64,000 bases of DNA, taken from assembly GCF_023169885.1 (NCBI RefSeq), contig NZ_AP025516.1, positions 682,001-746,000 of the forward strand. Reading direction: 5' to 3'. A model generated the notes under the pieces. The model was not told the DNA's origin. It ran no database searches and was given only the letters and a program-made list of their open reading frames with translations. The DNA comes from Desulfofustis limnaeus (GTDB taxonomy: Bacteria > Desulfobacterota > Desulfobulbia > Desulfobulbales > Desulfocapsaceae). Positions 26,891 through 44,474 of this stretch are shown here, piece by piece. Positions within the stretch are counted from its first letter, which is position 1. Each line of letters starts with the position of its first letter. The translations under genes and the position numbers were made by a program.

Positions 26891-28237
26891 CTAACGGATG
26901 AGGTATTCCCACAACGGGCCGCTGAAACGCCGCGCATGCATGGTTTTTATCGTCGCGGCCACGGTCTCGCCGCCGGATCCGATGATCCAGTTGGCCCGTC
27001 CGCCGGCCCGCTCGACGACCAGCGCTTCAACGGCGGTGCGGTCGATTCCGTCAGCCTCGTAAAAAAACGGGCGCAGCAGGTTCGTCTGCGAGGTTATCTT
27101 GCCCTCGGCCAGGGCGATGTCGTAGAGCAGGGTGTTCGGATAGACCCTGATGCCGATGAAAAAAAACAGAGCGGCCCGCTCCAGTTGCTCGATGGCGTCG
27201 AGGCTTGCCGTCACGGTCGCCCTTGATTCACTGGGGCCGCCGAACAGAAAATAGTGGGCCACATGCAGTCCGGCGGCCCGGGCCTGGGCGTGCGCCGCTC
27301 TGACGTCGTCGCCGCGAAACGGTTTGCGATAGACGCGCAGCATCTGCTCGCAGAGCGATTCGGTGCCGAATTCCACGTGTTTCAGCCCGGCTTCCCGCAT
27401 CGTTTGAAAATAGCCGTCAGGCGGTTTCAGGGGGGCGAAAAATCCGCCCCAGGGAATGGTGACGCCCTGTTTCTTGAAGGCGCGGGCGACGGCCAGACTG
27501 TGGGGGGTGTCAGAGTTGAAGGCGGAATCGGTGATAAACAGGTACCGGGCTCCGGCCTCCTGCAGGAGTCGGGCGTTGCGGGCCACCTGGTCGGGCGGCT
27601 GGAGGCGGTGGCGATGCCCTTCGATGTGGGGGTAGGGGCAGTAGAGACAGGTGAAGGCGCACCCGCGTTTGGTCTGCAGGTTGAGCATGCCGCCGTTGGC
27701 GATATAGAATTGGTGGTGGTCGGTTCGGTCGGCACACAAGCGCTGTTGTTCGCCGCTCCACGGGGGCGGGTAGACGGCCGGCTGACCGGCGGTGATGACA
27801 CCGGTCAGGGCAGCCACCTCGCGACCCGTTTCAAGAGCGTCGATGAATGATCGGAACCGTTCGCCCTCGCCGATGATGCCGAAATCGGCCCCGACCGCGG
27901 CGAGAAACGGCTGCGGCAGGATGGTGAAACCGCTGCCCCCGAGCACCAGGACAGCATTGCTCTGCCGGCGCAGCCAAGCGATCAGCTCCCGGTAGGAGTC
28001 GATAAAGGGGAGCGGCGCGCCGGCTTCGGTGTTGTCGATGTTGCGGCAGCTGATACCGATCACCTCGGGACGCAACTCTTCTATAATTCGTCTCAGGGCG
28101 TCTCGGTCCACCACGTTGAGGTCGGCGATGCGGACCTGGTGGCGATCGGCCACGGCGGCGGCCACATAGTCGAGGCCGATGGGGTAGACCGGATAGGGAA
28201 CGGTCAAGGTGTTGGGCGAGATCAGCAGGATGTTCAC
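26891..28237 (-). CDS. B12-binding-type radical SAM protein B
   Basis: The 448-residue protein has an N-terminal cobalamin-binding-type region (MNILLISPNTL, VIGISCRN, LVLGGSGFTI) and radical SAM CAFTCLYC (C193, C197, C200), then an elongator-type TIM barrel with FGTES and HYFLFGGP. It overlaps the KS-CLF stop by ATGA. The order ACP, KS-CLF, B12 radical SAM suggests that it modifies the chain made by that synthase. Confidence 0.85.
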   Translation of the reverse strand: MNILLISPNTLTVPYPVYPIGLDYVAAAVADRHQVRIADLNVVDRDALRRIIEELRPEVIGISCRNIDNTEAGAPLPFIDSYRELIAWLRRQSNAVLVLGGSGFTILPQPFLAAVGADFGIIGEGERFRSFIDALETGREVAALTGVITAGQPAVYPPPWSGEQQRLCADRTDHHQFYIANGGMLNLQTKRGCAFTCLYCPYPHIEGHRHRLQPPDQVARNARLLQEAGARYLFITDSAFNSDTPHSLAVARAFKKQGVTIPWGGFFAPLKPPDGYFQTMREAGLKHVEFGTESLCEQMLRVYRKPFRGDDVRAAHAQARAAGLHVAHYFLFGGPSESRATVTASLDAIEQLERAALFFFIGIRVYPNTLLYDIALAEGKITSQTNLLRPFFYEADGIDRTAVEALVVERAGGRANWIIGSGGETVAATIKTMHARRFSGPLWEYLIR

Positions 28238-30408
28238 GGCAGAGCGATCTCCAGAGCGCTCAGATAGTCATCGCTGGTGAGCAGCAAGATGGTCTTACCG
28301 GCTAGGGACCGGGGCGGGCCCTGAGCCAGGGAGGCGGGGAGTTCCCCATGGACCAGCAGCTGCCAGGCGAGCACGGCGGCCACCGCCGAGGCCGAGGCAT
28401 ACTCGCCGACCAGCTCACGGTAACGGAGCACCGGCACCGTCGTTCCAGCCATCGCCAGGAAACGGCTCAGCTGTTCTTCTCCGGCATCACGTCGGTCTGC
28501 GGGAAATCCAGCCAGGATGGCACCGCAGCGGCTTCGAATGGCATCGCTGCCGCCGTACCAGTCGAGCAGGGCGGCAATTGCTTCCGGGTCCCGGCGGCAG
28601 CGATAAAACGGGGTACTGATGAGACCGGTGGCGCCGTCGTGCCGACGGCTGACCAGCAGAGCGCCGCCGCCGTCGGCAAGCGGAGAGTCGGCCGGGATCG
28701 ACGCATCGAACAATGGCGACAGGTGTTGGTGACCTTCGTCCACGCCGAGCACCAGTGCCGGGGCGTCGTGGTCATCGAGAATCAGGTCGGCGGCCCACAA
28801 GGCTTGTTCGAAGGAATGGTTGCCGCCGCTGACGGTGATATTGGCCCCGGTCGCGTGAGCCCAGATGGCGATCTGGCTGGCCGGAGCGTTGTGCACCGAG
28901 CCGACGAAATCGGTGGGGCTGGGGAATTGTTCGTTGGAGGAAGCCAGACGTTCGAGAAAATCATGGGTCTCCGACAGGGCGCCCCAGCCGGTGCCGAGAA
29001 AAATTGCGGTCGGTACGCCGGCGGATCGGTCGTTGCCGAGCGTGGCGGCGGCCAGAGCCAGGGCCAGCCGAGGCAGCCGTTTGAGTCGGCGTACCAGACG
29101 CGGTGGCAGATGAGCGGCGGCGCTCAGATCGACCAGGCCGGCGGCCGTCACTCCGTTCCGAAGCCGCTCGAGGGTGGCGGCGGTATCACCGGCACCGCTC
29201 AGACAGCGGCCGTCGTGGATGGCCAGAAATCGTTTGTCCGTCTCGTGGTGCCGCGGTGCAAGGGTGCAGCGGCCGGCATCCGGCGGGACCTGGAGCACCA
29301 GGCAGCAATTGTTGCCGCCGAAACCGAACGAATTGGATAAAACCGTGGTCACGATTCGGTGCTGCGGTGTGCGCAGGGGCTTGAGATCGAGGGCCGGATC
29401 AGGCTGGCGACAGCCGGTGTTGGCCGGCAACAGACCCCGTGAGACGGCCAGGGCGGCGAGTACCGCCTCAATGGCGCCGGATGCCGCCAGCGAGTGACCG
29501 GTGGCGCCCTTCACCGAGGAGAGAGGGGGCGGTTGGGCGAAAAGGCGATGGATTGCCTTGGCTTCGGCCAGATCGTTGTCCGGCGTACCGGTACCGTGCA
29601 GGTTCAGGTAGTCGACCGACTCGGGTTTGCAAGCGGCATCGTCCAGGGCCGCCTGCATCGCCGCCAACGCGCCGTCTCCATCCGGGTGCGGTGCCGCGGG
29701 GTGGTGGGCATCGCAGGAGAGTCCGGCGCCGGCGAGAACGGCCAGCGGCCGGGCCGGGCGGGTTCTGGTCAACAGCAGCAGCGCCGCGCCTTCGGCCACG
29801 CTCATTCCCAGGCGCTTCTGGTCGAGCGGCCGACAACCGATCCGATCCACCAGTTGCAGTGAGTGAAAACCGAAATAGGTCAGGCGGCAGAGCGAATCGG
29901 CGCCGCCGGCCAGAATCCGTTCGTAGACTCCCTGTTGCAGCAGGCGCAGCGCCAGGGTAAGGGCCACCGAGCCGGAGGAACAGGCGGTGGAGACCGTCAA
30001 GGCCGGACCGTAACACCGGACGGCCCGGGCCACCTCCTCGGCGACGCTGGTCAGGCCGTGGTACCGGAACTGCGCCTGGGCCGTCACTCCGCTCCGGAGG
30101 AGTTCTTCGCTGGTGAGGATACCGCCGGTGGTGGTGCCGATGATCACCGCGTCCGGCGGGCGATCGTCGTCACGCACCACCTGGCCGGCGGCGGCCAGGG
30201 CCAGCCGATGGGTGCGCGGCAGCGGGCTGGGGACGAGTTCGTCGCTCACCTGGCCAACCGGCAGCGGCTGGCCGTGCAGCAGCGGGAACAGGGACAGGGG
30301 TGCGATGGCGGAGCGGCCGGCGGTCAGTGCCGTGCAGGTGGCTTCCGGGCCGGTGCCGAGCGAACTGACGATTCCGATACCGCTTATGTACACGGGGGGC
30401 AAACTCAA
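28234..30408 (-). CDS. Ketosynthase-chain length factor fusion (KS-CLF)
   Basis: The 724-residue protein joins two thiolase-fold units. Residues 1-~375 are an active FabF-like KS with C143 in STACSSGSVAL, NLHGTGTPDND and KGATGHSLAASGAIE. Residues ~385-724 match the chain-length-factor-like ketoacyl synthase N-terminal family (GTGWGALSETHDFL, SVHNAPASQIAIW), where the nucleophile position reads TVSGGNHSFEQ, so Cys is lost. Aryl polyene and type II PKS systems use separate KS and CLF proteins, and fusion into one chain is unusual. It overlaps the ACP gene (ATGA). Confidence 0.88.
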   Translation of the reverse strand: MSLPPVYISGIGIVSSLGTGPEATCTALTAGRSAIAPLSLFPLLHGQPLPVGQVSDELVPSPLPRTHRLALAAAGQVVRDDDRPPDAVIIGTTTGGILTSEELLRSGVTAQAQFRYHGLTSVAEEVARAVRCYGPALTVSTACSSGSVALTLALRLLQQGVYERILAGGADSLCRLTYFGFHSLQLVDRIGCRPLDQKRLGMSVAEGAALLLLTRTRPARPLAVLAGAGLSCDAHHPAAPHPDGDGALAAMQAALDDAACKPESVDYLNLHGTGTPDNDLAEAKAIHRLFAQPPPLSSVKGATGHSLAASGAIEAVLAALAVSRGLLPANTGCRQPDPALDLKPLRTPQHRIVTTVLSNSFGFGGNNCCLVLQVPPDAGRCTLAPRHHETDKRFLAIHDGRCLSGAGDTAATLERLRNGVTAAGLVDLSAAAHLPPRLVRRLKRLPRLALALAAATLGNDRSAGVPTAIFLGTGWGALSETHDFLERLASSNEQFPSPTDFVGSVHNAPASQIAIWAHATGANITVSGGNHSFEQALWAADLILDDHDAPALVLGVDEGHQHLSPLFDASIPADSPLADGGGALLVSRRHDGATGLISTPFYRCRRDPEAIAALLDWYGGSDAIRSRCGAILAGFPADRRDAGEEQLSRFLAMAGTTVPVLRYRELVGEYASASAVAAVLAWQLLVHGELPASLAQGPPRSLAGKTILLLTSDDYLSALEIALP

Positions 30409-30968: not shown

Positions 30969-31022
30969 CTTTTAGGTGTTTTTTTTCAATGGTAACAAGT
31001 ATACAGCAGCGTGAGCAGGGTC

Positions 31023-31457
31023 ATGGGTCGGCTTTCTGATCTGGGCCTGAGCTTGACCGATCTTCTGCCCCATCGGGAGCCGATGGTGCTTGTCGAGGAA
31101 ATCCTCGAGGTGGATCGGACCGTCGCCCAGACGCGTTCCACTGTCAGGACCAGCTGGCCGTTGGCCGAGTCGGACGGGGTCCAGCCGCTGGTGCTGATCG
31201 AGTTGGCGGCGCAGACCGCCGGGGTGTGCAACGGCTGGGACCGGATCAACACCAAGGGACCGGATTCGGAGAAGATGGGCTACCTGGTCGGGGTCAAACG
31301 GGCCCGTTTGCCCGAGGAACTGCTCGGTTATGGACAACGCCTGCTGGTCCGGGCGGAGAACAAGCATGATTTTGGCAACCTCCGGGAGGTCTTCTGCACC
31401 GTTAGCCGAGAGGACGAGGTGATTGCCGAGATCACCCTGCAGCTATTTCAAGCGTAA
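31023..31457 (+). CDS. ApeP-like hotdog 3-hydroxyacyl-ACP dehydratase
   Basis: The 144-residue protein has LPHREPMVLVEEIL (H17), typical of the single-hotdog dehydratases of aryl polyene and related clusters, and LIELAAQTAGV, which provides the acidic residue on the central helix. ATG 31023 follows AGCAGGG at normal spacing. GTG 31011 is a weaker alternative. It leads the rightward operon and is six bases before the ketoreductase. Confidence 0.82.
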   Translation: MGRLSDLGLSLTDLLPHREPMVLVEEILEVDRTVAQTRSTVRTSWPLAESDGVQPLVLIELAAQTAGVCNGWDRINTKGPDSEKMGYLVGVKRARLPEELLGYGQRLLVRAENKHDFGNLREVFCTVSREDEVIAEITLQLFQA

Positions 31458-31463
31458 GGAGCC

Positions 31464-32201
31464 ATGGAAACCGAAGAAAAGCGGAAAACCGCTCTGGTCA
31501 CTGGCGGCAGCAAGGGGATCGGGCGGGCCATCTGTGTGGAACTGGCGGCGGCCGGCTATGACGTGGTGATCAATTACCGCTCCGACCTGGCCGGTGCCGA
31601 GGAGACCCTGGTGGCCGTCACGGCGGTCGGCGGCCGGGGCGAGATCTGCCGTTTCGACGTGCGCGAGGCGGAGGCGGTCGAACAGGCGGTGGCCGATCTT
31701 GTCGCCCGCCGGGGCGGCATCGACGTGCTGGTCAATAATGCCGGGGTCGTGGCCGACGGACTCTTCTTGATGATGTCGAAGGACAAGTGGCAATCGGTGA
31801 TCGATACCGGCCTGAGCGGCTTTTACCATGTCACCCGACCGGTGCTCGAGACCATGGTCCCGCGCCGCTCCGGAGCGATCGTCTCCATCTCTTCGGCCTC
31901 TTCGCTGATGGCCAACCGCGGTCAGGCCAACTATGCGGCCGCCAAAGCGGCGATCAACGCCGCCAGTCGGGTGGTTGCCGCCGAGGTGGCCCGCCTCGGT
32001 ATCCGGGTCAACGTGGTGGCCCCGGGGCTGATCGATACCGATATGATCGCCGCCGCGCCCAAGGAGCAGATCAAGTCCTTGATCCCCATGGCCCGCATCG
32101 GCCGGCCGGAAGAAGTGGCCCGCGTGGTTCGCTTTCTCTGTTCCGAGGACGCCTCCTATATCACCGGCCAGGTCATTTCGGTGAACGGGGGGATGTTTTA
32201 G
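31464..32201 (+). CDS. FabG-like 3-ketoacyl-ACP reductase
   Basis: The 245-residue SDR enzyme has the NADP(H) motif TGGSKGIG, NNAG, catalytic S144, Y157 and K161 (NYAAAK) and a C-terminal GQVISVNGGMF. It reduces beta-ketoacyl-ACP in the cytoplasm. The start ATG follows AAGGAGCC. It is the only ketoreductase in the window, so it probably serves all the ketosynthases. Confidence 0.93.
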   Translation: METEEKRKTALVTGGSKGIGRAICVELAAAGYDVVINYRSDLAGAEETLVAVTAVGGRGEICRFDVREAEAVEQAVADLVARRGGIDVLVNNAGVVADGLFLMMSKDKWQSVIDTGLSGFYHVTRPVLETMVPRRSGAIVSISSASSLMANRGQANYAAAKAAINAASRVVAAEVARLGIRVNVVAPGLIDTDMIAAAPKEQIKSLIPMARIGRPEEVARVVRFLCSEDASYITGQVISVNGGMF

Positions 32202-32803
32202 TGGGTATTATCTATCGGATTGCCGTTTTGTTGTTAGGCTGCTGTCTCCTGCCGATCCCGGGAGGCGTTCGGGCCGCGGCCGACGAAACTCCGTTTTATC
32301 TGCAGTCGGTGCAGGCCGATTTCGTCCAGCGCAAGCACTTGCAGATCCTCCTGCAGCCACTCGTCTCCACGGGCAGTTTCGCCTTTCAGGCGCCGCAGTC
32401 GCTGCGCTGGGAATACCGGGAACCGATCCGCTCGGTGCTCGTCATGCACGCCGGTTTCGCCCGCAAATACGTGGAGCGGGACGGGCGCTGGGAGGAGGAC
32501 CGCGGCGCGCCGGTGGGGGCCCTGCAGTTCGTGCTGGCCGAGATGAGCGATTGGTTGGCCGGCCGGTTCACCGACGAGGGGCTGTTTCATGTTACCGTGG
32601 TTGATCCGCAGACCATGCGGTTCGTGCCGAAGGATCAGACGGTTGCGGCCTTCATCCGCTTTGTCGAGATTCGTGTCGGCGAACAGCCGGGGCTGCTCGA
32701 CAGCGTGCTGATCGATGAGGGTGACGGTGCCTTCACCGAGATGACCTTCACCAATCGGGTCCTCAACCCGGATCTGCCCTTCGAGTTGTTTTCCGCACCG
32801 TGA
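32201..32803 (+). CDS. LolA-like periplasmic lipid carrier
   Basis: The 200-residue protein starts at GTG 32201 (one-base overlap with the FabG stop) and has a signal peptide (YRIAVLLLGCCLLPIPGGVRA). The mature part shows LQSVQADFVQRKHLQILLQPLVSTGSFAFQAPQSLRWEY, the LolA-related pattern of aryl polyene clusters. It probably ferries the lipid product or a lipoprotein across the periplasm. Confidence 0.82.
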   Translation: MGIIYRIAVLLLGCCLLPIPGGVRAAADETPFYLQSVQADFVQRKHLQILLQPLVSTGSFAFQAPQSLRWEYREPIRSVLVMHAGFARKYVERDGRWEEDRGAPVGALQFVLAEMSDWLAGRFTDEGLFHVTVVDPQTMRFVPKDQTVAAFIRFVEIRVGEQPGLLDSVLIDEGDGAFTEMTFTNRVLNPDLPFELFSAP

Positions 32804-33465: not shown

Positions 33466-33559
33466 GCGGGCCGAAAACGGTTTCCCGGTGTCGACTGCCG
33501 GTGCGGGCCGGCACCTCTCGGTTGCCGATCAGATAGAACGGAGCAAGAAAACACCCACC

Positions 33560-34825
33560 ATGAAATTCAAGCTGATCTATCCGCGCTGGGCGAAACTGGC
33601 CCGGCAGACCGAATTCCACCTGCCGCCCCACGGCCCGGTGGTCTTTGCCGCCACCCTTCCCGACTATGTGGAGGTGGATTTCGTCGACGAGAATCTCGAA
33701 CCCCTTGATTTCGACGAGCCCGTGGATTTCGTCGGGATCTCGATGATGCTCACCATTCAGGTCAAACGTGGCTGGGAGATCGCCGATATCTACCGCAAAA
33801 AGGGGATCAAGGTGATCTTCGGAGGGATCGCCAGCATGCTTCACGCCGAAGAGACCATGGCCCATGCCGACTCCGTTTTTCTCGGTGAGGCCGAGGGGCG
33901 GATGGAGCAAGTCTTTGCCGATTTCCGGCGCGGCGAGCTGCAGCCCTGTTACAACTTTCTCGACCGGCGTCCGGATATCGGCCTGGTCGGCCCGGCCCGG
34001 CGTGATATCCTCAACCGCCGCCTCTACAACTACAAGGGCGTGCAGATGGTGGACCTGGTGCATGCCTCGCGCGGGTGCCGGTTCAACTGCTACCCCTGTG
34101 CCGTTTCCTACCTGGGCGGTCGGGAGTTCCGGCCGCGCCCGGTGAGTAAGACCATTGCCGAGATGGCCGGTATCGACAACAACCGGCTGTTCATCGTCGA
34201 CAACTCCCTGGCCCAGGATGCCCGCTGGGAGATGGAGCTGTTTAAGGAGATGATCCCGCTCAAGAAGAAATGGTGTTCGCACCCCATCGAGGATAAACCA
34301 GAGGTCCTCGACCTGGCCGCGCAGGCCGGCGCCTGGTACGTCTATCAGGCGGTCTTCGACACCTCGGATTATATCAGGGAGCGGATCAAGCGCTACCATG
34401 ATCACGGTATCGGCGTCGAGGGCACGATTCTGCTCGGGCTGGACAGCCACAGCGAGGACTCCATCCGTCGGCTGATCGATTTTTTGCTGGAGATCGAACT
34501 GGACCTGGCCGAGTTTACGGTGCTCACACCGTTTCCTCATACCCGGGCCTATACCGAACTGTACCGTGAAGGCCGGATCCGCTCCTTCGACTGGGACGAC
34601 TATACCGCCGACAAGGTCGTCTACCAGCCGAAACAAATGAGTGGTGAACGGTTGCAGGAACTGCTCGATTTCGCCTGGGATACCTTTTATCGGGAAGAAC
34701 CGCAGCGCATCAAGATGACCAAGCTTTTCCAACAGGTGATTCGCAAGGAGATGGCCGACAACACCTATCACCCGCGGGACCGGAGCCTGGCCGGTCAGGC
34801 TTTCGGCAGGACCGCTCGGCCATGA
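33560..34825 (+). CDS. B12-binding-type radical SAM protein C
   Basis: The 421-residue protein has a B12-type N-terminal region (FKLIYPRW, VDFVGISMML, VIFGGIASML) and radical SAM CRFNCYPC (C173, C177, C180), then FILL-type barrel strands and LTPFPHT. ATG 33560 starts the family core. A 24-codon extension upstream lacks support. It overlaps the AMP-ligase gene (ATGA), suggesting action on an activated or primed chain. Confidence 0.83.
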   Translation: MKFKLIYPRWAKLARQTEFHLPPHGPVVFAATLPDYVEVDFVDENLEPLDFDEPVDFVGISMMLTIQVKRGWEIADIYRKKGIKVIFGGIASMLHAEETMAHADSVFLGEAEGRMEQVFADFRRGELQPCYNFLDRRPDIGLVGPARRDILNRRLYNYKGVQMVDLVHASRGCRFNCYPCAVSYLGGREFRPRPVSKTIAEMAGIDNNRLFIVDNSLAQDARWEMELFKEMIPLKKKWCSHPIEDKPEVLDLAAQAGAWYVYQAVFDTSDYIRERIKRYHDHGIGVEGTILLGLDSHSEDSIRRLIDFLLEIELDLAEFTVLTPFPHTRAYTELYREGRIRSFDWDDYTADKVVYQPKQMSGERLQELLDFAWDTFYREEPQRIKMTKLFQQVIRKEMADNTYHPRDRSLAGQAFGRTARP

Positions 34826-36189
34826 ATGTCCCGACGCTGCAGCAAGGACGCGTACGGCTGGCCGAGGTGCTGGCCGGACCCCGGTATCCCGACCACCCGT
34901 ACGTCCTGTCCGGCTCTACGCACGGGCAGGTGTATGCCATGGCAGCCTGGCTGGTGGAACATTTTCGCACCTCGGGCGGCGAGCGGCAGCTGGTGTGCCT
35001 GGCCGCCGAGGATCGTAGCATCATCGCCGCCGCCGTGCTTGCTTCGTTGGCGGGCGGGCCGATTCTGCTGCTGCCGTACGGCTTTTCCGAACGGATCCTG
35101 GCCGGGATCCACGGGAGCACCGGTTACCGCAGCGCCATCGTCGACCGCGACCTGCCCTGGCCGCCCGGTGTAGAGACCGTGCACCCGCAGCCCCAGGCGA
35201 ACCAGCCGCTGGTCGCCGACCCGGCTCCGACGGCGGACCGGGTCCTGCTTCATCTGTACACCGGAGGGTCCACCGGGGTGCCGCAGTTCTGGTCGAAGAC
35301 GGCCGGCAACCTGCTCTTCGAGACCATGCATCTGGTCGATTTTCTGGTTGTTACCCCGGAAGACCGGATCGTCGCCACCGTCTCCCCCTACCACATCTAC
35401 GGACTGCTCTATTCGGTGCTGCTGCCGCTGCTGGCATCGGCCGCCGTCTCTCCGCTCACCCCCTCCTACCCAGCCGAGATCGTCGAGGCCGTGGCCGCCG
35501 AACAGGCCACCATACTGGTCAGCGTGCCGGCCCACTACGATGCCCTGCACGGCAGGACCTGCGCCACCAGCTGGCTGCGGCTGGCCACCTCGTCCGCCGG
35601 CATGCTCAGCGAAGAAAGCAATCGCGATTTCCGGCAACGCAACTGGCTTGAGCTGATCGAGATCTACGGCTCCACCGAGACGGGCGGCATAGCCAGCCGC
35701 AACCGGTTCCGGGCAGAGGAGTATTTTCGCCTGTTTCCCGCCGTCGAGGCAACACGCGTCGGTGAACGGCTGGCGGTCCGCTCGCCGTTCACCTCGCCGG
35801 AAGCGCCGCGCGACGGGGATGGTTTTTTTCTCTGCGGCGATCGCGCCGTCTTCCCGGAACCCGGTCTGCTGGCCCCGCAGGGGCGGGCCGACCATATCGC
35901 CAAGGTCGGCGGCAAACGGGTCAACCTGGAGGAAGTTCGCACTGCCGTCCGGCACCAGGCCGGGGTCCGCGATGCGGTGGTGCTGACTGTCCCCATTGGC
36001 GGCGGGCGTGAACAGCAGGTGGTGGCCGTGGCTCAGGGACGGTGCACCCCGGAATCCATCAGAGCGGGGTTGGCAGGGCTGCTCGAACCCTATGCCATGC
36101 CTCGCATCATCCGTTGCGTGAACACCATCCCGGTGACCGTTAACGGCAAGTATGACCGGGAAGCGATCCTCGCCCTGGTGAAACCATGA
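34822..36189 (+). CDS. AMP-dependent acyl ligase (acyl-ACP/CoA synthetase-like)
   Basis: The 455-residue adenylate-forming enzyme has YTGGSTGVP, IYGSTETGG, a GR.D hinge and the C-terminal Lys in NGKYDRE. Such stand-alone ligases load starter acids onto ACP or CoA in aryl polyene clusters. Coupled by ATGA to radical SAM C and to the FakAB-like gene. Since no ammonia lyase is visible, the acid is more likely aliphatic (inference). Confidence 0.85.
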   Translation: MNVPTLQQGRVRLAEVLAGPRYPDHPYVLSGSTHGQVYAMAAWLVEHFRTSGGERQLVCLAAEDRSIIAAAVLASLAGGPILLLPYGFSERILAGIHGSTGYRSAIVDRDLPWPPGVETVHPQPQANQPLVADPAPTADRVLLHLYTGGSTGVPQFWSKTAGNLLFETMHLVDFLVVTPEDRIVATVSPYHIYGLLYSVLLPLLASAAVSPLTPSYPAEIVEAVAAEQATILVSVPAHYDALHGRTCATSWLRLATSSAGMLSEESNRDFRQRNWLELIEIYGSTETGGIASRNRFRAEEYFRLFPAVEATRVGERLAVRSPFTSPEAPRDGDGFFLCGDRAVFPEPGLLAPQGRADHIAKVGGKRVNLEEVRTAVRHQAGVRDAVVLTVPIGGGREQQVVAVAQGRCTPESIRAGLAGLLEPYAMPRIIRCVNTIPVTVNGKYDREAILALVKP

Positions 36190-37901
36190 CGTCGCTGGAC
36201 CTCGCCCTGGTCACCGGTTACGAGTGTCTGGCCGCCTGGGCCGATCTGCTTGACCGGATCAACGTCTTTCCCGTGGCCGACGGCGATACCGGCGCCAACC
36301 TGCGGATCAGCCTGGCGCCGCTGAAGGCGCCGGATAGTGAGCGCCGGCTCCTGGTGGATCGGTTGAGTCGCACTGCCACCGGTAATTCCGGTAATATCGC
36401 CGTGGCCTTTCTGCGTGCCTTTGCGGCCGCCACCGACCCGGCCGAGTTGGCGGCCGCCGCCGAGCAGGGACGGCGGCAGGCGTGGCAGGCGGTGGCTCGA
36501 CCGCAGCCGGGGACCATGCTCTCGGTGTTCGATACCGTGGCCGGGTTTTCCGGTTCCTGGCAGGACGGCGAAATCTACGACCGCCTGAGCCGGCTGCTGC
36601 AGCGGAGCGTCGTTGACGGTGCGGCGCTGATCCCCGCCATTCGGCAGGCCGGCGTGGTGGACGCCGGGGCGCTGGGGATGTATATCTTTTTCGACGGTTT
36701 CTGCCAGAGCCTGGCCGGCAGAGAGCGGATCGAGGTTGATGTGCGGGGGCCGTTCGCCGGCCGGCTGGACATCAATCCCGGGATTTTTCTGCCGGCCGCC
36801 GAACCCGGGGAACAGTTCTGCGTCGATGCCGTGTTGGCCACGAATAGCCCTCCAGCCGAGATGAGCGAAGCCCTGAACGAGCTGGGCGATAGCCTGGTGC
36901 TGCTTGATGATGCCGCAGGGGTCAAGATCCATGTTCACACCGCCGAGCCCCAGCAGCTGCGCCATCGGCTTGCTGGTTTCGGGGAGGTTATCGGTTGGTC
37001 CGATGAGCCGATCCGGGCCTCGGCGGGCACCGGACAGCCGATCGCCCGGACGGGCCAGACGATCAGGGTGGTCAGCGACGCGGCTGGTTCTTTGTCCCGA
37101 GAGCTGGCTGAAAAACACGGTATCACGCTGCTCGACAGCTATCTAGTCTATGACGGTCAGTCACGCCCGGAAAGTCTTTGCGATCCGGGGGAAATCTACC
37201 GTCTGCTGCGTGCCGGCCACCGGGTGACCACGGCCCAGGCCTCGGTCTTCGAGCGCCGGCTGCGCTTCCAGCGCTTTTGTCAGGAAGGGGAGCGCACCCT
37301 CTATCTTTGTGTCGGCTCCGCCTTTACCGGCAACTACGATGTCGCCGCGGACTGGAAGCACGGCCATGACCGGGACAACCGCTTGGAGATCCTCGACACC
37401 GGGGCGGCCTCGGGGCGGCTCGGGCTGATCGCCCTGCTCACCGGGCGTTTAGCCGAGAGCGGTCTCGAGGCCGCGGCGGTGATCGAGTTCGCCCGGCAGC
37501 GGCTGACCAGCTGCCAGGAGTTGGTCTTCATCGATCAGCTCAAATACCTGGTCGCCGGTGGCCGGGTGTCGCGGGCCGGCGGTTTTTTCGGGGACCTGCT
37601 GCAGCTCAAGCCGATCATCAGCCCCACCGCCGGCGGCGTGCGTCGCGAAGGGGTGGTGCGTCATCGCCGGGGGCAGATCGGTTTCGCCCTGGAGCGGCTG
37701 CAACAACGATTTAGCGTCGATGACCGGCCGACAATCCTGCTCCAGTATTCCGACAATCGTACCTGGGTGAGTGAAACGGTGGCCGGTCAGCTGGCGGACC
37801 GGCTGCCCCGGGCGGAGCTGATCCTGGTGCCGTTGTCGCTGACCTCCGGCGTCCATATGGGTCCGGGCACCTGGTCGGTGGCCTGGGATCTGGTGGATTG
37901 A
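36186..37901 (+). CDS. FakA-FakB fusion: DAK2 kinase joined to DegV fatty-acid-binding domain
   Basis: The 571-residue protein starts with a DhaL/DAK2 kinase domain (INVFPVADGDTGANL, TGNSGNIAVAFLRAF, GVVDAGALGMY), followed by the FakA C-terminal region (ELGDSLVLLDDAAGVKIHVHT). From ~residue 295 it is DegV/FakB-like (IRVVSDAAGSLSRELAEKHGI, VTTAQAS, LCVGSAFTGNY). In Firmicutes FakA and FakB are separate proteins that make acyl-phosphate from free fatty acid. The fusion inside a synthase cluster implies acyl-phosphate as an intermediate for the acyltransferases nearby. Overlaps the AMP-ligase by ATGA. Confidence 0.85.
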   Translation: MTSLDLALVTGYECLAAWADLLDRINVFPVADGDTGANLRISLAPLKAPDSERRLLVDRLSRTATGNSGNIAVAFLRAFAAATDPAELAAAAEQGRRQAWQAVARPQPGTMLSVFDTVAGFSGSWQDGEIYDRLSRLLQRSVVDGAALIPAIRQAGVVDAGALGMYIFFDGFCQSLAGRERIEVDVRGPFAGRLDINPGIFLPAAEPGEQFCVDAVLATNSPPAEMSEALNELGDSLVLLDDAAGVKIHVHTAEPQQLRHRLAGFGEVIGWSDEPIRASAGTGQPIARTGQTIRVVSDAAGSLSRELAEKHGITLLDSYLVYDGQSRPESLCDPGEIYRLLRAGHRVTTAQASVFERRLRFQRFCQEGERTLYLCVGSAFTGNYDVAADWKHGHDRDNRLEILDTGAASGRLGLIALLTGRLAESGLEAAAVIEFARQRLTSCQELVFIDQLKYLVAGGRVSRAGGFFGDLLQLKPIISPTAGGVRREGVVRHRRGQIGFALERLQQRFSVDDRPTILLQYSDNRTWVSETVAGQLADRLPRAELILVPLSLTSGVHMGPGTWSVAWDLVD

Positions 37902-37923
37902 AACGGGTGGGGTGCAACCGGCC

Positions 37924-38631
37924 ATGAACGCAGCAATCGTCATTCCCGTCTACAACCACGGGCCGCTGGTCGGCGCGGTGGTGGCTCGCGCCCTGGCGCT
38001 GGCGCTGCCGGTCATTGTCGTCGATGACGGCAGTACCGATGAGACGGCGGCGGTCCTCGCCGAGTATGGCGGAATTACCGTCTGTACCCATCCGGTCAAT
38101 CGGGGCAAGGGGGCGGCGCTGCTCACCGGCTTTGCCGAGGCCCGCAGGCGAGGGTGTGACTGGGCGCTGAGCTTCGACGGCGACGGTCAGCATCACCCCG
38201 AGGACGCGCCGGCCCTGCTGGCCGCCGTCCAGGATGGGCGACGGCGTCTCGTGATCGGCCGGCGCACCGGGATGGCCCCAGGGCGCACCGTTCCCTGGAC
38301 GAGCCGCTTCGGCCGCGGGTTCTCCAATTTCTGGGTGCGGGCCTGCGGCGGCCCGGCGGTGAGCGATTCCCAATCGGGATTTCGTCTCTACCCCTTGCCT
38401 GAGGCCCTGGATCTGGGTGTGCGGGCACGCCGTTACCAGTTCGAGGTGGAGGTGCTGGTACGGGCTGCCCAGGCGGGACTGGCCGTGTGTGAGGTGCCGG
38501 TGGGCGTCGTTTATCCGGGACCGGGCGAGCGGGTCAGCCATTTCCGGCCCTGGGTCGATTTCTGGCGCAACTCCGGGACCTTTTCCCGGCTGCTGGGACG
38601 ACGGCTGATCGGGGGGCTGCGGCGCCGATGA
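37924..38631 (+). CDS. Family 2 glycosyltransferase
   Basis: The 235-residue GT2 enzyme has AIVIPVYNHG, IVVDDGSTDE and the metal-binding SFDGDGQHHPED, resembling dolichol-phosphate-mannose-synthase-like enzymes without TM tails. ATG 37924 follows a GGTGGGG stretch. GTG 37912 is possible. It overlaps the LpxL-like gene by ATGA. GT2 proteins next to acyltransferases are common in aryl polyene clusters and may build the glycan head group. Confidence 0.85.
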   Translation: MNAAIVIPVYNHGPLVGAVVARALALALPVIVVDDGSTDETAAVLAEYGGITVCTHPVNRGKGAALLTGFAEARRRGCDWALSFDGDGQHHPEDAPALLAAVQDGRRRLVIGRRTGMAPGRTVPWTSRFGRGFSNFWVRACGGPAVSDSQSGFRLYPLPEALDLGVRARRYQFEVEVLVRAAQAGLAVCEVPVGVVYPGPGERVSHFRPWVDFWRNSGTFSRLLGRRLIGGLRRR

Positions 38632-39500
38632 GCGGCTGGTTCTATCGGCTTCTCTGCCTCTCCGGCCGGGTCTTCGGAGCCAGGCTGTTCGCGCTTGTGG
38701 CCCGGGTCGTTGCCGTCGGTTATTTCCTCTTTTCACCCCGCGCCGGGGAGAGCCGCCGCTTCTACGCCCAGCTCTTTCCGGGCAAGGGGTGGTGGTTTTA
38801 TCAGTGGTGCACCTTCCGCCAATACCAGAGCTTCACCACCATCCATCTCGATCGGTTTCTTCGCAATCGCCTCGGCAGGCCGGTGAGCTTCACCTCGACC
38901 GGCTGGGAAAAACTGACCGCCACGCTGGGCGGCAGCGGCGGTATCCTGCTCATGTCGCATCTCGGCAATTGGGAGATGGCCGCCCACCTGCTCCGGGAAC
39001 GGCAGCGGCATCTGCCGGTGGTGCTTTACATGGGGATCAAGGAACGAGAAGCTATCGAGGGAGAGCAGAAGGAGGACCTGCGCCGGGCCGGAATAACCAT
39101 CGTCGGCGTGGAGCGCGGTGCTGCCTCCCCCTACAGTCTGGTGGAAGGGATCGCCTGCCTGCGGGCCGGCGGCATTGTCTCTCTGGCCGGAGATCTGCTA
39201 TGGAGCGACCAGCAGCGGCAGGTGGAGGTGGCGTTTCTCGGTGGGCGGGCATATCTGCCCAGTACCCCCTATATCCTGGCCCTGCTCACCCGGGCGCCGT
39301 TGTTCGCCTTCTTCTCGTTTCGTCGCGGTCCCAACAGCTACGATTTTTCCCTGTCCGAGCCCCTGTCGGTCCAGTGCCGGGATCGCCGCGAGCGGGATGA
39401 AGCCATCGACCGGGCCGCCCAGCACTACGCCGACCTGCTGATCGAGGCGCTGCGGCAGCACCCGTTCGAGTGGTACCACTTCGAGCGGTTCCTGCACTGA
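38628..39500 (+). CDS. LpxL/HtrB-like lysophospholipid acyltransferase
   Basis: The 290-residue protein has the acyltransferase motif SHLGNWEMA (HX4E), GGIVSLAGDLLW and an N-terminal hydrophobic helix (LFALVARVVAVGYFLF). It moves an acyl chain from ACP to a lipid or glycan acceptor at the inner membrane. It closes the rightward block before a 98-base gap. Confidence 0.87.
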   Translation: MSGWFYRLLCLSGRVFGARLFALVARVVAVGYFLFSPRAGESRRFYAQLFPGKGWWFYQWCTFRQYQSFTTIHLDRFLRNRLGRPVSFTSTGWEKLTATLGGSGGILLMSHLGNWEMAAHLLRERQRHLPVVLYMGIKEREAIEGEQKEDLRRAGITIVGVERGAASPYSLVEGIACLRAGGIVSLAGDLLWSDQQRQVEVAFLGGRAYLPSTPYILALLTRAPLFAFFSFRRGPNSYDFSLSEPLSVQCRDRRERDEAIDRAAQHYADLLIEALRQHPFEWYHFERFLH

Positions 39501-39598
39501 GCCGAGGGGAAGAATTGCTTGTGCTGGGGCCGGGGAAAGGTGTATGTTCCCAGATTAACTCTTTTGATTCTCAATCTATTTCAGGCCACGACCAGCTG

Positions 39599-39880
39599 AT
39601 GACCAGAGAAGAACTGCAAAAGCGGATTTTGACCATCCTCGAGGAGGAGTTCGAGTTCGAGTCTCCGGGGCTCGATGACAACTTGCGCGACGACCACGGT
39701 TTCGATAGCATCGACGCCATCGAGCTGTTGGCCAAGATCGAGAAAATGCTCGGCATATCCTTGAGTCGCCAGGAAAAAGAGCAGGCGATGACCATCCGTA
39801 CCATCAACGACATCCTCGATTACATCGAGCGGATGCAAGCCGGCCGGAAAACCTCGAACGATTCGGCGCCGCGCCCATGA
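39599..39880 (+). CDS. Acyl carrier protein 4
   Basis: This 93-residue ACP has GFDSIDAIELL (S37). ATG 39599 gives the right domain start. The frame runs further upstream without support. It overlaps the next ketosynthase by ATGA, which marks the KS-ACP pair as a functional unit. Confidence 0.9.
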   Translation: MTREELQKRILTILEEEFEFESPGLDDNLRDDHGFDSIDAIELLAKIEKMLGISLSRQEKEQAMTIRTINDILDYIERMQAGRKTSNDSAPRP

Positions 39881-41124
39881 ATCGCCGTGTCGTCATCACC
39901 GGTTGTTCGGCCATCACGCCGATCGGCTACGGCAAGCAACCGATCGTCGACAGCCTCCTGCACGGCCGTTCGGGGATCCGCCCCCTGCGCGACGACGGGT
40001 TGCTGACCGAGCATATCCATTCCCGGGTCTTCGGCACGGTCGACTATCCCATCGACTACCAGTTCAAACGGGCGCACCGCAAGACCATGGGGCCGGTGGC
40101 CTGCTACGCCTGTCAGGTGGCCAAGGACGTCCTGGAGGCCTCCGGTTTGAGCGAGGAGTTCATTACCTCCGGCCGGCTTGGAGTGGCGTTCGGCTCGACG
40201 CACGGCAGTCCCACCGTGCAGCGGGAGATCTACAAGACCTTTTTCGGCGATCTGGCCAACCGGTTGTCGTCGATCGGCGCCGTCGATTATCTGCGCTCCA
40301 TGGTCCACACTACGGCGGTCAACATCACCCGGATGTTCGGCATCACCGGGCGGGTGATCGCCTCGTCCACCGCCTGCACCACCTCCAGCCAGGCCATCGG
40401 TTTCGGCTACGAGACGATTAAATTCGGCCTGCAGGATGCGATGATCTGCGGCGGCGCCGACGAGTATGATACCACCACGGTGGCGGTCTTCGACAATCTG
40501 CTGGCCTGTTCGGTGGCCTACAATGACCAGCCGTCGCGGACGCCGCGACCCTTCGACGCCGCCCGTGACGGGTTGGTGGTCGGCGAAGGCGGCGGCGCCG
40601 TGCTGCTCGAGGAATACGAGGCAGCCAGGCGGCGCGGCGCGCCGATCCTCGGTGAGGTGATCGGCTTTGCCTGCAACAACAACGGCGGAGATCTGATCCT
40701 GCCGAACCTGGAGGGTATCACCGCTACGCTGCGGTTGGCCTTGGACAGCGCCGGGATCGGTGCCGAGCAGGTGGATCTGATCAGTGCCCATGCCACCGCC
40801 ACCAAGATGGGTGACGTGGTGGAGGCCCAGGCCATTGCCGCGGTCTACGGCGACCGTCCGTGGGTGGCCGGCCTGAAGAGCTACATGGGCCATACCATGG
40901 GCACCTGCGGTGTCATCGAACTGGCGCTGCTGCTCTACATGATGGAGCAGGGTTTCATCGCCCCGACGCTGAACCTGGAAAACGTCGATTCTCGCTGCGC
41001 CATGATCCGCCACGTCCGTCGTCTCGAGGAGCAGCCGGTGCGCATCGCCGCCCTGCAGAACTTCGCCTTCGGCGGCGTCAACACCTGTCTGATTATCAGA
41101 AATGACCCCGATCACGCCGCGTGA
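39877..41124 (+). CDS. Beta-ketoacyl-ACP synthase (FabF-like) 3
   Basis: The 415-residue ketosynthase has C167 in STACTTSSQ, H305 in SAHATATKMGD and K334/H339 in LKSYMGHTMGTCG. The STACTT and SYMGHTMGTCG contexts differ from housekeeping FabF and from the other two FabF-like enzymes here, so a different chain length or substrate is likely. Its 3' end overlaps the PlsC-like gene by 23 bases. Confidence 0.9.
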   Translation: MNRRVVITGCSAITPIGYGKQPIVDSLLHGRSGIRPLRDDGLLTEHIHSRVFGTVDYPIDYQFKRAHRKTMGPVACYACQVAKDVLEASGLSEEFITSGRLGVAFGSTHGSPTVQREIYKTFFGDLANRLSSIGAVDYLRSMVHTTAVNITRMFGITGRVIASSTACTTSSQAIGFGYETIKFGLQDAMICGGADEYDTTTVAVFDNLLACSVAYNDQPSRTPRPFDAARDGLVVGEGGGAVLLEEYEAARRRGAPILGEVIGFACNNNGGDLILPNLEGITATLRLALDSAGIGAEQVDLISAHATATKMGDVVEAQAIAAVYGDRPWVAGLKSYMGHTMGTCGVIELALLLYMMEQGFIAPTLNLENVDSRCAMIRHVRRLEEQPVRIAALQNFAFGGVNTCLIIRNDPDHAA

Positions 41125-41947
41125 GCAGGGGGCGACCGGCCGCTTGGATCGCTTGATCGACGGCGTGGTCACCATCATCTGCTGGCTCTATTTCACCTTC
41201 GGCTTCATTGTTCTCTTCTCCTGGCGTTACCTGTTCGCATTTTTCCTGCCGGATCGGGCAACCCGTTTTCAGCGGTTCAACAACTTGTTCTACCGGGGTT
41301 TTTTTCGCCTGCTCCAGGCTCTGACACCGCGCCAGCGCTGGCAGATAGACCGGCACGCGCGGGCGTTGCACTCGTCGGTCATCGTCTGCAACCATGTCTC
41401 CTATCTCGACCCGCTCATCCTCATTTCGCTGTATGAGCGTCACAAGACGGTGGTCAAGACCGTCTTTTTCAAAGTGCCGATCTTCGGCTGGGTGCTGCGT
41501 CATGCCGGCTATTTCCCCGCCGATGGAGGCGGGCGGTACGGGTCGATGATGATCGATCAGGTGGAAGGGATGGAGGAGTTTCTTGGCGGCGGCGGCAATT
41601 TTTTCATCTTTCCGGAAGGCACCCGCAGCCGCGACGGCAGCCTCGGGGCCTTGAACCGGGGCGCGCTGAAGATCGCCCGGTTGTGCCGGGCGCCCATCCA
41701 GGTGGTGCGGCTGACCAATACCGGCAACCTCTTTATTCCGGGGCGATTCTTCTTCAACACCAGGCAACCCAATCACATTCGACTCGACCTGGTGGCCTCC
41801 CTGGATGCGGGTACCGTGGCCGGTTTGTCGCTGGCGCAGTTGGAAAGCCGCATCGAGGCCGCGCTGCGTTTCCCTGATGGCGCAGAGCGGTCCGGCAACG
41901 AACTGGCGGCGAGCGGTTTCCGGGACGACTCGACGGTGAAGCCATGA
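41102..41947 (+). CDS. PlsC-like 1-acyl-sn-glycerol-3-phosphate acyltransferase
   Basis: The 281-residue protein has an N-terminal TM segment (LYFTFGFIVLFSWRYLFAFF), NHVSYLD (block I) and FPEGTRS (block III). It should transfer an acyl chain to a lysophospholipid or related acceptor on the inner membrane. It overlaps both KS 3 and the next radical SAM gene, pointing to incorporation of the product into glycerolipid. Confidence 0.88.
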   Translation: MTPITPREQGATGRLDRLIDGVVTIICWLYFTFGFIVLFSWRYLFAFFLPDRATRFQRFNNLFYRGFFRLLQALTPRQRWQIDRHARALHSSVIVCNHVSYLDPLILISLYERHKTVVKTVFFKVPIFGWVLRHAGYFPADGGGRYGSMMIDQVEGMEEFLGGGGNFFIFPEGTRSRDGSLGALNRGALKIARLCRAPIQVVRLTNTGNLFIPGRFFFNTRQPNHIRLDLVASLDAGTVAGLSLAQLESRIEAALRFPDGAERSGNELAASGFRDDSTVKP

Positions 41948-43437
41948 AAGTACTGCTGTTGTCCATGCCGGACGTGGTGCCGATCATCATCCACGAGGCC
42001 GCCGTACATATGCCGAATCACGGTATCGCCTGTGTCGGCGGCAATATCGATCCCGAACATGAGGTCCATCTGGTTGATCTGATCAGAAAACGGCGCAGCG
42101 TCAGAAGGTATCTGAGTCGCCTTATGGAGCGTCTGCAGCCCGATCTGGTCGGGCTTTCGGCCATGGCCTGGCAGTATGATACCTGCATCAGGATCGCCCG
42201 TCTGCTCAAGGCGCTTCGTCCCGAGACCAAGATCGCCATCGGCGGCTATCACGCCACGCTGATGCACGAGGAGATCGCAACGGCGCCGGAGGCCCGGTGG
42301 ATCGACTTCATGATCCGCGGCGAGGGCGAAGAGGCCTTCCGCCGCCTGGTCAACGGCCTGGCCGGCTGCGATGACCTGGCCGCCATCCCGTCGCTCTCCT
42401 ACAAGCAGGGTGATGCTTTCGTGCACAACGAGCGGGCCGCCAATCTGGATCTGGCCACCCTGCGCCTGCCCATCCGCGACAAGCGGCGGCTGACCTGGGG
42501 CTACCACATGGTCAACGCCAAGATCGAGGTGCTCGAGACCTCCCGCGGCTGCACCCGGGCCTGCACGTTCTGCAGCATGAAGCACATGTATGGCAGGAGT
42601 TTTCGCGCCTATCCGCTGGAGCGGGTGCTGGACGACCTGGATGACATCTATTATCGCTGCCGGGCCCGCTGGGTATTCGTCAGCGATGACAACTTCGTGC
42701 TCTATCCGGCGCGGGTTATGGAACTCTGCGAGGCGATCATCGCCCGCAACTATCGTGGTCTCCATTTCTGCGTCCAGGCCGATTGTCGGACCATGGCGAG
42801 CAACGAAGAGATGGTGGCGAAGATGGCCGAAGCCGGCTTCTGTTCGGTCTTTCTCGGCATCGAAAGCGGTTCCGCCAAGAATCTCAAACTGGCCGGCAAG
42901 GGCGATATCGTTGATGCATCGCGCCGGGCGGTTCGGATGTGTCACAAATACCAGATGATGGTCATCGGCGGGCTGGTCTTCGGGTTTCCCCCGGACGATG
43001 TCGATTCCATCCGGGAGACCTACGAGTTCTTCCGCGACATCGATGCCGATGCCGCCTATTGTCAGATCCTCACCCCCTATCCGAAGACCGGGATGCGGCA
43101 ACAGCTGCTCGACGAGGATCTGATCGTCAACAAGAGCGACTACAAAAAGTACAACGGGTTGTGGGCCAACGTTCGGACCAGGCATCTCAGTGCCGAGGAG
43201 TTGCACTATCAGTTCTGGTATCAGCGCCAGGTAGTGCTCGGCTGGTGGAAACCGAGCCCGCTGATGGCCCGGCAGGGGCGGTTGTGGACGTCGATCTGGC
43301 GCTTCGCCTTCAAACCGCTGCTGCAATGGCGCCACCGTCGGGCCATGGCGAAGCACGGCTGGCGTGGGTTGTACCTACAGGAGGTGGAACACTGGCAGCA
43401 GATGAACACCTTCAGTGATCTGGAGGGCTATCGATAA
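41944..43437 (+). CDS. B12-binding-type radical SAM protein D
   Basis: The 497-residue protein has a B12-type N-terminal domain (MKVLLLSMPDVVP, LVGLSAMAW, IAIGGYHATLM), radical SAM CTRACTFC (C203, C207, C210) and a long C-terminal extension ending in a Trp/Arg-rich basic stretch (WWKPSPLMARQGRLW) that may contact the membrane. Related to BchE/HpnJ-like enzymes in layout. Coupled to PlsC by ATGA, so a lipid-bound substrate is plausible. Confidence 0.85.
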   Translation: MKVLLLSMPDVVPIIIHEAAVHMPNHGIACVGGNIDPEHEVHLVDLIRKRRSVRRYLSRLMERLQPDLVGLSAMAWQYDTCIRIARLLKALRPETKIAIGGYHATLMHEEIATAPEARWIDFMIRGEGEEAFRRLVNGLAGCDDLAAIPSLSYKQGDAFVHNERAANLDLATLRLPIRDKRRLTWGYHMVNAKIEVLETSRGCTRACTFCSMKHMYGRSFRAYPLERVLDDLDDIYYRCRARWVFVSDDNFVLYPARVMELCEAIIARNYRGLHFCVQADCRTMASNEEMVAKMAEAGFCSVFLGIESGSAKNLKLAGKGDIVDASRRAVRMCHKYQMMVIGGLVFGFPPDDVDSIRETYEFFRDIDADAAYCQILTPYPKTGMRQQLLDEDLIVNKSDYKKYNGLWANVRTRHLSAEELHYQFWYQRQVVLGWWKPSPLMARQGRLWTSIWRFAFKPLLQWRHRRAMAKHGWRGLYLQEVEHWQQMNTFSDLEGYR

Positions 43438-44474
43438 TGCAGTACTACAACCTTGAGTTCAGCGAGGCGGATGTCCGTGAGGCTGCAGCGGCTGGGCGGC
43501 TGCTGTCGATGGAAATCGAAGTGAGCCGCCGCTGCAACTTCCGTTGCCGTTACTGCTACGTCCCTCACGAAGCGGAACTGCAGGGCGAGCTGAGCCGGGT
43601 CGAGCTTGAGGATGCCATCGAGCAGGCCCGGGCCCTGGGCGCGCGCAAGATCATCCTGCTCGGCGGCGAGCCGAGCATCTATCCGGAGTTGAAGGAGCTC
43701 ATCGAGTTTCTCAGCGACCGCGGCGCCGAGATTGAACTGTTCACCAACGGTTCCGGGATCGACAGCAATATGGCCGCCTTTTTAGCCGATCATCGGGTCC
43801 GGGTGGTGCTGAAGATGAATTCCCGGAAACCCGAGGTGCAGGATCGGCTCGCCGGTCTGCCCGGTGCGGCCAGGATCATCGACCGCGCCTTTACCGCGCT
43901 GCGGCGGGCCGGATATCCGGGAGCGGGCCGTTTCCTCGCGGTCAGCACCGTCATCTGCCGGCAGAACATCGATGAGTTGGAGGAGCTGTGGCGATGGCTA
44001 CGCCAGGAGGCCATCGAACCCTATTTCGAGATCATCACTCCCCAGGCCAACGCCCAGACCAATACCTGGCTGCAGCCGGAACCCGGGGCGGTGCGCGATC
44101 TCTTCTTCCGGCTGGCCACCATCGACCGCGAGGAGTTCGGCCACCGGTGGGACCCGCAGCCGCCTCTGGTGGGCAACCGCTGCATGCGCCACCAGGTCTC
44201 CTGTCTGCTTACCGCCCAAGGGGAGGTGATGCCCTGCGTCGGGGTCACCATCCCGCTCGGCAACATCCGACAACGGCCGTTGGCCGAGATCCTGCGCACC
44301 AGCGACGTCATCGCCAACCTGAAGAACTACCGCCAGCGGATCACCGGACCCTGTCGTGACTGTGACAAGGCTGACGGCTGTTACGGCTGCCGTGGGGCCG
44401 CCTACCAGTTGACCGGTGATTATCTGGCCTCCGACCCCACCTGCTGGCGCAACGGCGGCTGTTCTTCAGCATAG
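43437..44474 (+). CDS. Radical SAM protein with SPASM-like C-terminal Cys cluster
   Basis: The 345-residue protein has CNFRCRYC (C33, C37, C40), LLGGEPSIYPE and a SPASM-type tail (CMRHQVSC...GEVMPC...GPCRDCDKADGCYGCRGAAY), enough cysteines for two extra 4Fe-4S clusters. SPASM enzymes often form C-C, C-S or C-O bonds or dehydrogenate. ATG overlaps the previous stop by one base. It is the seventh radical SAM gene of the cluster. Confidence 0.87.
   Translation: MQYYNLEFSEADVREAAAAGRLLSMEIEVSRRCNFRCRYCYVPHEAELQGELSRVELEDAIEQARALGARKIILLGGEPSIYPELKELIEFLSDRGAEIELFTNGSGIDSNMAAFLADHRVRVVLKMNSRKPEVQDRLAGLPGAARIIDRAFTALRRAGYPGAGRFLAVSTVICRQNIDELEELWRWLRQEAIEPYFEIITPQANAQTNTWLQPEPGAVRDLFFRLATIDREEFGHRWDPQPPLVGNRCMRHQVSCLLTAQGEVMPCVGVTIPLGNIRQRPLAEILRTSDVIANLKNYRQRITGPCRDCDKADGCYGCRGAAYQLTGDYLASDPTCWRNGGCSSA

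Follow-up and report, generated by a model that had tools for sequence, protein, structure and literature searches.

In the 64,000-nucleotide stretch of Desulfofustis limnaeus DNA analysed here (contig NZ_AP025516.1, positions 682,001 to 746,000; below, the window) the gene at 36186-37901 (+) is predicted to combine both components of a fatty acid kinase in a single chain. It lies in a lipid cluster related to aryl polyene (APE) clusters, and we consider it probable that its product is a dedicated single-chain fatty acid kinase, which converts a free acid to an acyl phosphate for lipid-anchor assembly by the neighbouring GT2 glycosyltransferase and LpxL-like acyltransferase. The literature presents fatty acid kinase as a two-component system by which Gram-positive bacteria use fatty acids (PMC9136124, PMC10146087). 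What is new compared to the two-component enzyme is the single chain, the loss of the docking domain and the tie to a gene cluster; in the present case, lipid clusters of Gram-negative bacteria encode what appears to be a fatty acid kinase in one protein. Among the titles and abstract beginnings listed by searches of the open-licence literature no FakA-FakB fusion in a gene cluster was found described, and no open-licence paper was found that combines fatty acid kinase with aryl polyene.

Domain composition of the fusion

The open reading frame (ORF) begins with an ATG, which overlaps the stop codon of the AMP-ligase gene by 4 bases, and encodes 571 amino acids. Pfam assigns Dak2 to residues 29-173 (E-value 2.1e-13, 51 bits, cut-off 27), FakA-like_M (PF21645) to residues 210-269 (8.2e-10, 38.8 bits, cut-off 24.9) and a full DegV/FakB domain (PF02645) to residues 293-567 (2.2e-39, 135.9 bits, cut-off 27). 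The NCBIfam DegV model TIGR00762 is also passed (145.2 vs. a cut-off of 99.7). Since the FakA model TIGR03599 (YloV) covers only its profile positions 5-336 of 530 and with a score of 133.1 stays under its cut-off of 396.1, no third FakA domain is recognised; no FakA_C docking domain was found in the fusion, where residues 293-567 are DegV. In Staphylococcus aureus, FakA consists of the ATP domain FakA_N, the linker FakA_L with Cys240, His282 and His284, and the FakB-binding FakA_C (PMC9136124). Read against this order, the domain matches mean that the fusion is, as judged from its sequence, FakA_NL joined to FakB: FakA_C is gone and FakB stands in its place. FakA_NL without FakA_C is still active, with a higher KM for FakB (PMC9136124). 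The original prediction had placed DAK2, a FakA C-terminal region and DegV/FakB in one chain; the single chain with Dak2 and DegV was borne out, while the middle piece is the FakA middle/linker domain.

With 98 of 257 order genomes carrying this chain (contig-end fragments included), a chance fusion, a frameshift or an assembly join was ruled out. The chain is likewise present in all 80 named loci kept, one of which (L073) ends with its contig at residue 498. FakA_C is related to FakB, and a plain FakA could thus have been misread as a fusion; this was rejected, since the third domain scores above the DegV cut-offs and has retained the FakB Arg, and since TIGR03599 stops at position 336 of 530. 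The FakA_C structure 6W6B is absent among the best 50 structure matches of the model described below, which by itself proves nothing.

Conserved residues and structure model

Ten FakA/FakB catalytic positions are identical in 81/81 sequences, i.e. in the window and in 80 loci, the best 80 of 249 relatives from a scan of named genomes. Six of them are ATP/Mg positions: N26, D32, D34, T35, N67 and D159 correspond to FakA Asn32, Asp38, Asp40, Thr41, Asn82 and Asp185 in an alignment with S. aureus FakA_N. The triad C212, H249 and H251 was taken as Cys240, His282 and His284 from a motif alignment against Streptococcus suis FakA, and R460 as FakB1 Arg173 from an equal-length match to 6nyu that was assumed to be gapless. 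Because the peptide patterns by which the loci were found contain N26 and D159, these two counts are biased; the other eight are not. H557 is a His in 80/81 rows, the remaining row ending before that position. The roles of the FakA ATP/Mg sites, the Cys-His-His triad and the FakB Arg are those given in PMC9136124. The ATP/Mg, Cys-His-His and FakB Arg positions are retained, so that the loss of binding residues that would have spoken against the original prediction was not seen, and from the sequence we strongly infer kinase chemistry for the fusion. That the protein only binds acid, as a carrier or sensor, and that its kinase half is dead, as the modest Dak2 score of 51 bits might suggest, is very improbable, since nine FakA catalytic/nucleotide positions are kept in 81/81 sequences.

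The AlphaFold2 model, built with 50 sequences, reached a mean predicted local distance difference test score (pLDDT) of 87.9 and a predicted template modelling score (pTM) of 0.89, the single stretch below pLDDT 50 being the linker before DegV (residues 279-287). It supersedes an earlier run with 15 sequences (pLDDT 76.7, pTM 0.57), whose structure comparison agrees. Both halves match known folds. The DegV half resembles lipid-binding DegV/FakB structures, namely 1pzx (Z-score 32.0, root-mean-square deviation (rmsd) 2.3 over 281 residues), FakB2 7w7h_E (Z 28.4, rmsd 2.9 over 274) and S. aureus FakB1 5uto (Z 26.8, rmsd 2.9 over 277). The solved DegV structures matched by the model are, by their titles, binders of long-chain fatty acids. 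The kinase half matches FakA_N 7rm7 (Z 23.2, rmsd 2.1 over 180), and a match to Escherichia coli DhaL 2btd has Z 16.6 and rmsd 2.6 over 174 at 16% identity.

Gene neighbourhood of the fusion

Neighbouring genes were searched by tblastn with the window proteins as queries, counting matches on the same strand anywhere in the available flank. In each of the best 80 of 249 relatives the fusion is accompanied by one or more lipid-cluster genes or by an adjacent thioesterase, and among these 80 the fusions are thus not found mostly outside lipid neighbourhoods. Among loci with enough flank, the LpxL-like acyltransferase is located downstream in 61/61 and GT2 in 65/68 (missing in L097, L099 and L107), with GT2 as the next match within 400 bases in 61/68. 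Acyl carrier protein (ACP) and ketosynthase follow downstream in 39/49 loci each, the PlsC-like acyltransferase in 38/46, the B12-binding radical SAM enzyme in 30/43 and the radical SAM/SPASM enzyme in 22/41. By adjacency, the anchor genes GT2/LpxL are indicated as partners of the fusion more than the cluster in its entirety. The original proposal that an acyl phosphate feeds the cluster, or that a released acid is recaptured, is partly supported.

Of the 68 loci with 1.5 kb of upstream sequence, 44 have an AMP ligase there. It stands immediately upstream in 43/80 loci (10 of the 80 could not be judged). A 4HBT-type thioesterase takes this place in 25/80 (two cut by the contig end; Pfam 4HBT confirmed for two), the gap between thioesterase match and fusion match being 12-118 bases in 24 loci and 333 in one. 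In a tree of the 81 rows, the AMP-ligase type (47, window included) and the thioesterase type (25) form the two sides of one branch, with nine rows unlabelled. Repeated independent recruitment of the thioesterase is therefore not needed, as the difference amounts to one change on the tree. The sparse locus L096 comprises a radical-SAM ORF, thioesterase, fusion, GT2 and LpxL. On a contig labelled Spirochaetes (L103:8354-13482) a compact arrangement of aromatic lyase, fusion, GT2 and LpxL was found, for which mis-binning or transfer is possible.

Distribution and co-occurrence with a cluster marker

In the order, 104 of 257 genomes gave a match and 98 were counted as carriers, contig-end fragments included; six were left out (G125, G126, G127, G128 and G159 with 24-25% identity in the DegV part, G059 with a 41-aa fragment). 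In the family, Dak2 was found in 55 of 93 genomes, 52 of them carriers and three (G136, G137, G160) without the fusion. A second, separate Dak2 ORF of FakA-like length occurs in the carriers G113 and G116; separate Dak2 ORFs were read as FakA or DhaL from length and score. G117 shares its genus with the window genome, which has PlsY, PlsX and two aromatic-lyase genes elsewhere. The phylum search at E 1e-10 matched 34 of 395 genomes, four of them with separate or partial matches only (G442, G540, G550, G585; 22-31% identity); in G442, G550 and G585 the FakA-like and FakB-like genes are separate and lie side by side. One phylum-search genome is already among the 80 loci. By title, the best 80 of 249 relatives are mostly Desulfobulbaceae, Desulfobacterales and other deltaproteobacterial records, and they also include Allochromatium, Thiorhodococcus, SAR324 and a metagenome-assembled genome (MAG) labelled Spirochaetes.

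As a marker of the cluster we used the B12/radical-SAM-type gene 33488-34825, counted at an identity of at least 75%. Of the 257 order genomes, 95 have the marker, 92 of them with and three without the fusion; six have the fusion only and 156 neither (Fisher p 4e-58, a value that ignores relatedness). The three marker-only genomes are drafts of 72-85% completeness. A sister form of the marker (55-60% identity) is found in 35 order genomes, 34 of them without the fusion. Since the sister-marker loci mostly lack it, the fusion marks one subtype within a larger cluster group.

The marker protein itself shows 75-88% identity in the 95 order genomes (own included), has weak family matches only and contains a CxxxCxxC stretch. 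In loci L114-L119 of this order a sister subtype of the cluster is found that lacks the fatty acid kinase; L119 has a match to an aromatic lyase. L114, the sole sister locus annotated in detail, comprises AMP ligase, GT2, LpxL, PagL and an amine-oxidase/phytoene-desaturase-like gene.

Proposed function and alternatives

We propose that the DegV half would hold a free long-chain acid as FakB does, while the Dak2 half would bind ATP-Mg and the linker domain would supply the Cys-His-His triad. Since FakB is covalently attached, as is seen in the anatomy of the chain, the docking domain FakA_C would be dispensable for activity. The acid would be phosphorylated by ATP in cis or across a dimer. In line with the observed association, the fusion would be dedicated to an APE-like, outer-membrane-type lipid pathway; its substrate would most likely be either a polyene or alkyl acid freed from ACP by a thioesterase or a fatty acid destined for the anchor. 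Once formed, the acyl phosphate could be used directly, or as acyl-ACP after PlsX, by the neighbouring GT2, LpxL and PlsC proteins building the lipid anchor. Release of the APE acid and its joining to a membrane anchor have been proposed for E. coli (PMC8253772), and with the fusion gene there is a specific activation step to test in APE-related clusters. The suggestion that a released acid is recaptured gains weight, because the 4HBT thioesterase stands directly upstream of the fusion in 25/80 loci; this adjacency, confined to one clade, favours ACP-released acid as the substrate.

Several points weigh against this proposal. Kinase activity of the fusion is a prediction, its ligand and product are conjectural, and R460 lies in a lower-confidence part of the model (blocks 451-470, pLDDT 70 and 60). 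LpxL relatives use acyl-ACP. So do relatives of PlsC, and no PlsY, the direct user of acyl phosphate, was found among the cluster ORFs scanned (PMC9136124 for both enzymes). For the E. coli thioesterase ApeK, no hydrolysis was seen in vitro, and a proofreading role has been suggested (PMC8253772). The operon of the window has the AMP ligase and not a thioesterase upstream of the fusion, the thioesterase being located 15 kb away on the other strand, which together with the single clade limits the recapture idea. Six further loci with upstream sequence differ from both types: the next gene is a response regulator-GGDEF gene in L074 and L076, an aromatic lyase in L103 and a relative of ORF 32800 in L108, and no gene was found in L057 and L082. 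Moreover, the switch between AMP ligase and thioesterase is a single historical change, so that the respective counts are not independent.

In a more specific version, polyenoyl (aryl-polyene-type) phosphates produced by the fusion would be an obligatory stage between release by the thioesterase and attachment to the glycolipid anchor, and the adjacent LpxL-like protein would accept the acyl phosphate directly. We regard this as possible but doubtful; if true for the LpxL-like protein, it would add a second class of acyl-phosphate-using acyltransferases beside PlsY. The thioesterase might instead clear stalled or wrong acyl-ACPs, with the fusion and PlsX returning the acids to the ACP pool and no acyl phosphate on the main path. 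Although PlsX is encoded in the genome, the thioesterase is adjacent in 25/80 loci and such a role has been proposed for ApeK (PMC8253772), we consider this recycling unlikely, since the most constant partners GT2 and LpxL are anchor-type and not elongation genes.

That the fusion merely travels with the cluster and acts as a general kinase for exogenous or turned-over fatty acids, delivering to PlsY or via PlsX to acyl-ACP, is in our view improbable. Salvage is the known role of Fak (PMC9136124), the fusion is the sole Dak2 and the sole DegV match in its genome at E 0.001, and this genome encodes PlsX and PlsY. However, fusion and marker co-occur nearly one to one, LpxL follows in 61/61 loci, the genes overlap in the window, and 159 of 257 order genomes, a set with many incomplete drafts, fell outside the carrier count. 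Finally, the acid phosphorylated by the fusion could be the starter, aromatic or short, with which the ketosynthases are primed; the fusion would then do the work of ApeH. An aromatic amino acid lyase, which we take to be an APE-like sign, is found upstream in 4/80 loci (L102, L103, L106, L109), and 25 of 27 loci checked (25 of the thioesterase type, L103 and L108) have no AMP-ligase match in the available flank, several being short contigs. On the other hand, the ligase itself stands directly upstream in the window and in 43/80 loci, and the DegV structures matched are long-chain binders. An ApeH-like ligase was also detected elsewhere in 6 of 10 genomes tested (5/9 of the thioesterase type and the L103 genome; the four without match are MAGs and may be incomplete), which weakens the idea of the fusion as an AMP-ligase replacement. 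We thus assign starter activation a low probability.

If the proposed kinase is confirmed, a docking-free single chain could help to trap the closed active site, of which no structure existed according to PMC9136124 (2022); the FakA-FakB2 complex 7w7h has been released since.

The gene cluster in the window

The features of the cluster are compiled in Table 1. Around the fusion, gene ends overlap within the window. A scan of 30500-45000 for promoters and terminators was uninformative (0 promoter-like sites vs. 2.4 in shuffles, 16 terminator-like sites vs. 11.4).

Table 1 Features of the window, from the fusion outwards (ORF coordinates on the window)
Feature	Position	Strand	Remark
Predicted single-chain fatty acid kinase: FakA_N-like (Dak2), FakA linker, FakB-like (DegV)	36186..37901	+	Pfam, NCBIfam, residues, model
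ApeH-like AMP-forming acyl/aryl ligase	34822..36189	+	overlaps fusion start by 4 bases
GT2 glycosyltransferase; putative equivalent of ApeJ N-part	37912..38631	+	
LpxL-like lipid A acyltransferase family protein; putative equivalent of ApeJ C-part	38628..39500	+	
Acyl carrier protein	39470..39880	+	true start probably near 39599
Beta-ketoacyl-ACP synthase	39877..41124	+	
PlsC-like acyltransferase (ApeD-like)	41102..41947	+	
B12-binding radical SAM enzyme	41944..43437	+	
Radical SAM/SPASM enzyme	43437..44474	+	
B12/radical-SAM-type protein, co-occurrence marker	33488..34825	+	Pfam B12-binding 30.9 bits, under cut-off 32.1
LolA-like chaperone	32201..32803	+	start approximate (ORF opens 31787)
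3-ketoacyl-ACP reductase-like SDR (ApeQ-like)	31464..32201	+	
ApeP-like dehydratase, weak	31011..31457	+	24.4 bits, cut-off 27
Ketosynthase and second ketosynthase-like domain in one 724-aa chain; possibly KS-CLF-like	28234..30408	-	
Lipid-biosynthesis B12 radical SAM, TIGR04072	26891..28237	-	372.1 vs. cut-off 360
4HBT/YbgC-type thioesterase, the one named in the original prediction	20876..21379	-	
MMPL exporter fused to methyltransferase, 1094 aa	16382..19666	-	
StlD/DarB family ketosynthase	13927..15078	-	511.9 vs. cut-off 450

The chain at 28234-30408 (-) is perhaps a fused ketosynthase (KS) and chain-length factor (CLF). The MMPL-methyltransferase chain has matches over both parts in L099, L101, L102 and L108, the domains being checked in L099 only. 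ORF 32800-33465, in the position of ApeN, gave no Pfam or NCBIfam match. The 462-aa ORF after the SPASM gene, 44416-45804 (+), has no Pfam match; L033 is the only one of the 80 loci in which a relative (72% identity) was seen.

Comparison with known systems

With the APE cluster of E. coli CFT073 (PMC8253772) the window shares AMP ligase, ACPs (two in the window), several ketosynthases, ketoreductase, dehydratases and a PlsC-like protein, and further GT2, an LpxL-type acyltransferase, a LolA-like protein, an MMPL exporter and a thioesterase. The APE core set of AMP ligase, KS/CLF, ketoreductase, dehydratase and ACPs is found in the window, with the ApeP-like match below its cut-off and the CLF assignment tentative. 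As for the dedicated export set ApeL/ApeM/ApeN, LolA and MMPL were found and the ORF in the ApeN position is without family match. Unlike the window, the E. coli gene table lists no fatty acid kinase (PMC8253772). The GT2 and acyltransferase parts are separate genes in the window and one gene in E. coli (PMC8253772), and the window cluster additionally contains a DarB-type ketosynthase and several B12 radical-SAM enzymes.

Anammox bacteria and Desulfotalea have ladderane/polyunsaturated-hydrocarbon clusters (PMC2649909), with which the window has in common radical SAM enzymes, a large number of ketosynthases, a glycosyltransferase and a gene resembling CoA ligases. The gene at 26891-28237 passes the cut-off of TIGR04072, a ladderane-associated radical SAM model. 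No amine-oxidase match was found among the cluster ORFs scanned, which were not all of the ORFs; the amine-oxidase/phytoene-desaturase-like gene of L114 recalls the Desulfotalea and anammox clusters (PMC2649909).

Like dihydroxyacetone kinase (DhaK and DhaL), the fusion pairs a DhaL-type ATP domain with a substrate domain of the EDD fold, but it has the acid-binding DegV instead of DhaK and a linker domain with Cys-His-His. It is also close in composition to the FakA-FakB system of S. aureus, with which it shares FakA_N and FakA_L with all tested catalytic residues, as well as the FakB/DegV fold with the essential Arg. In contrast to that system it lacks FakA_C, consists of one chain instead of two and belongs to a Gram-negative biosynthetic cluster (PMC9136124).

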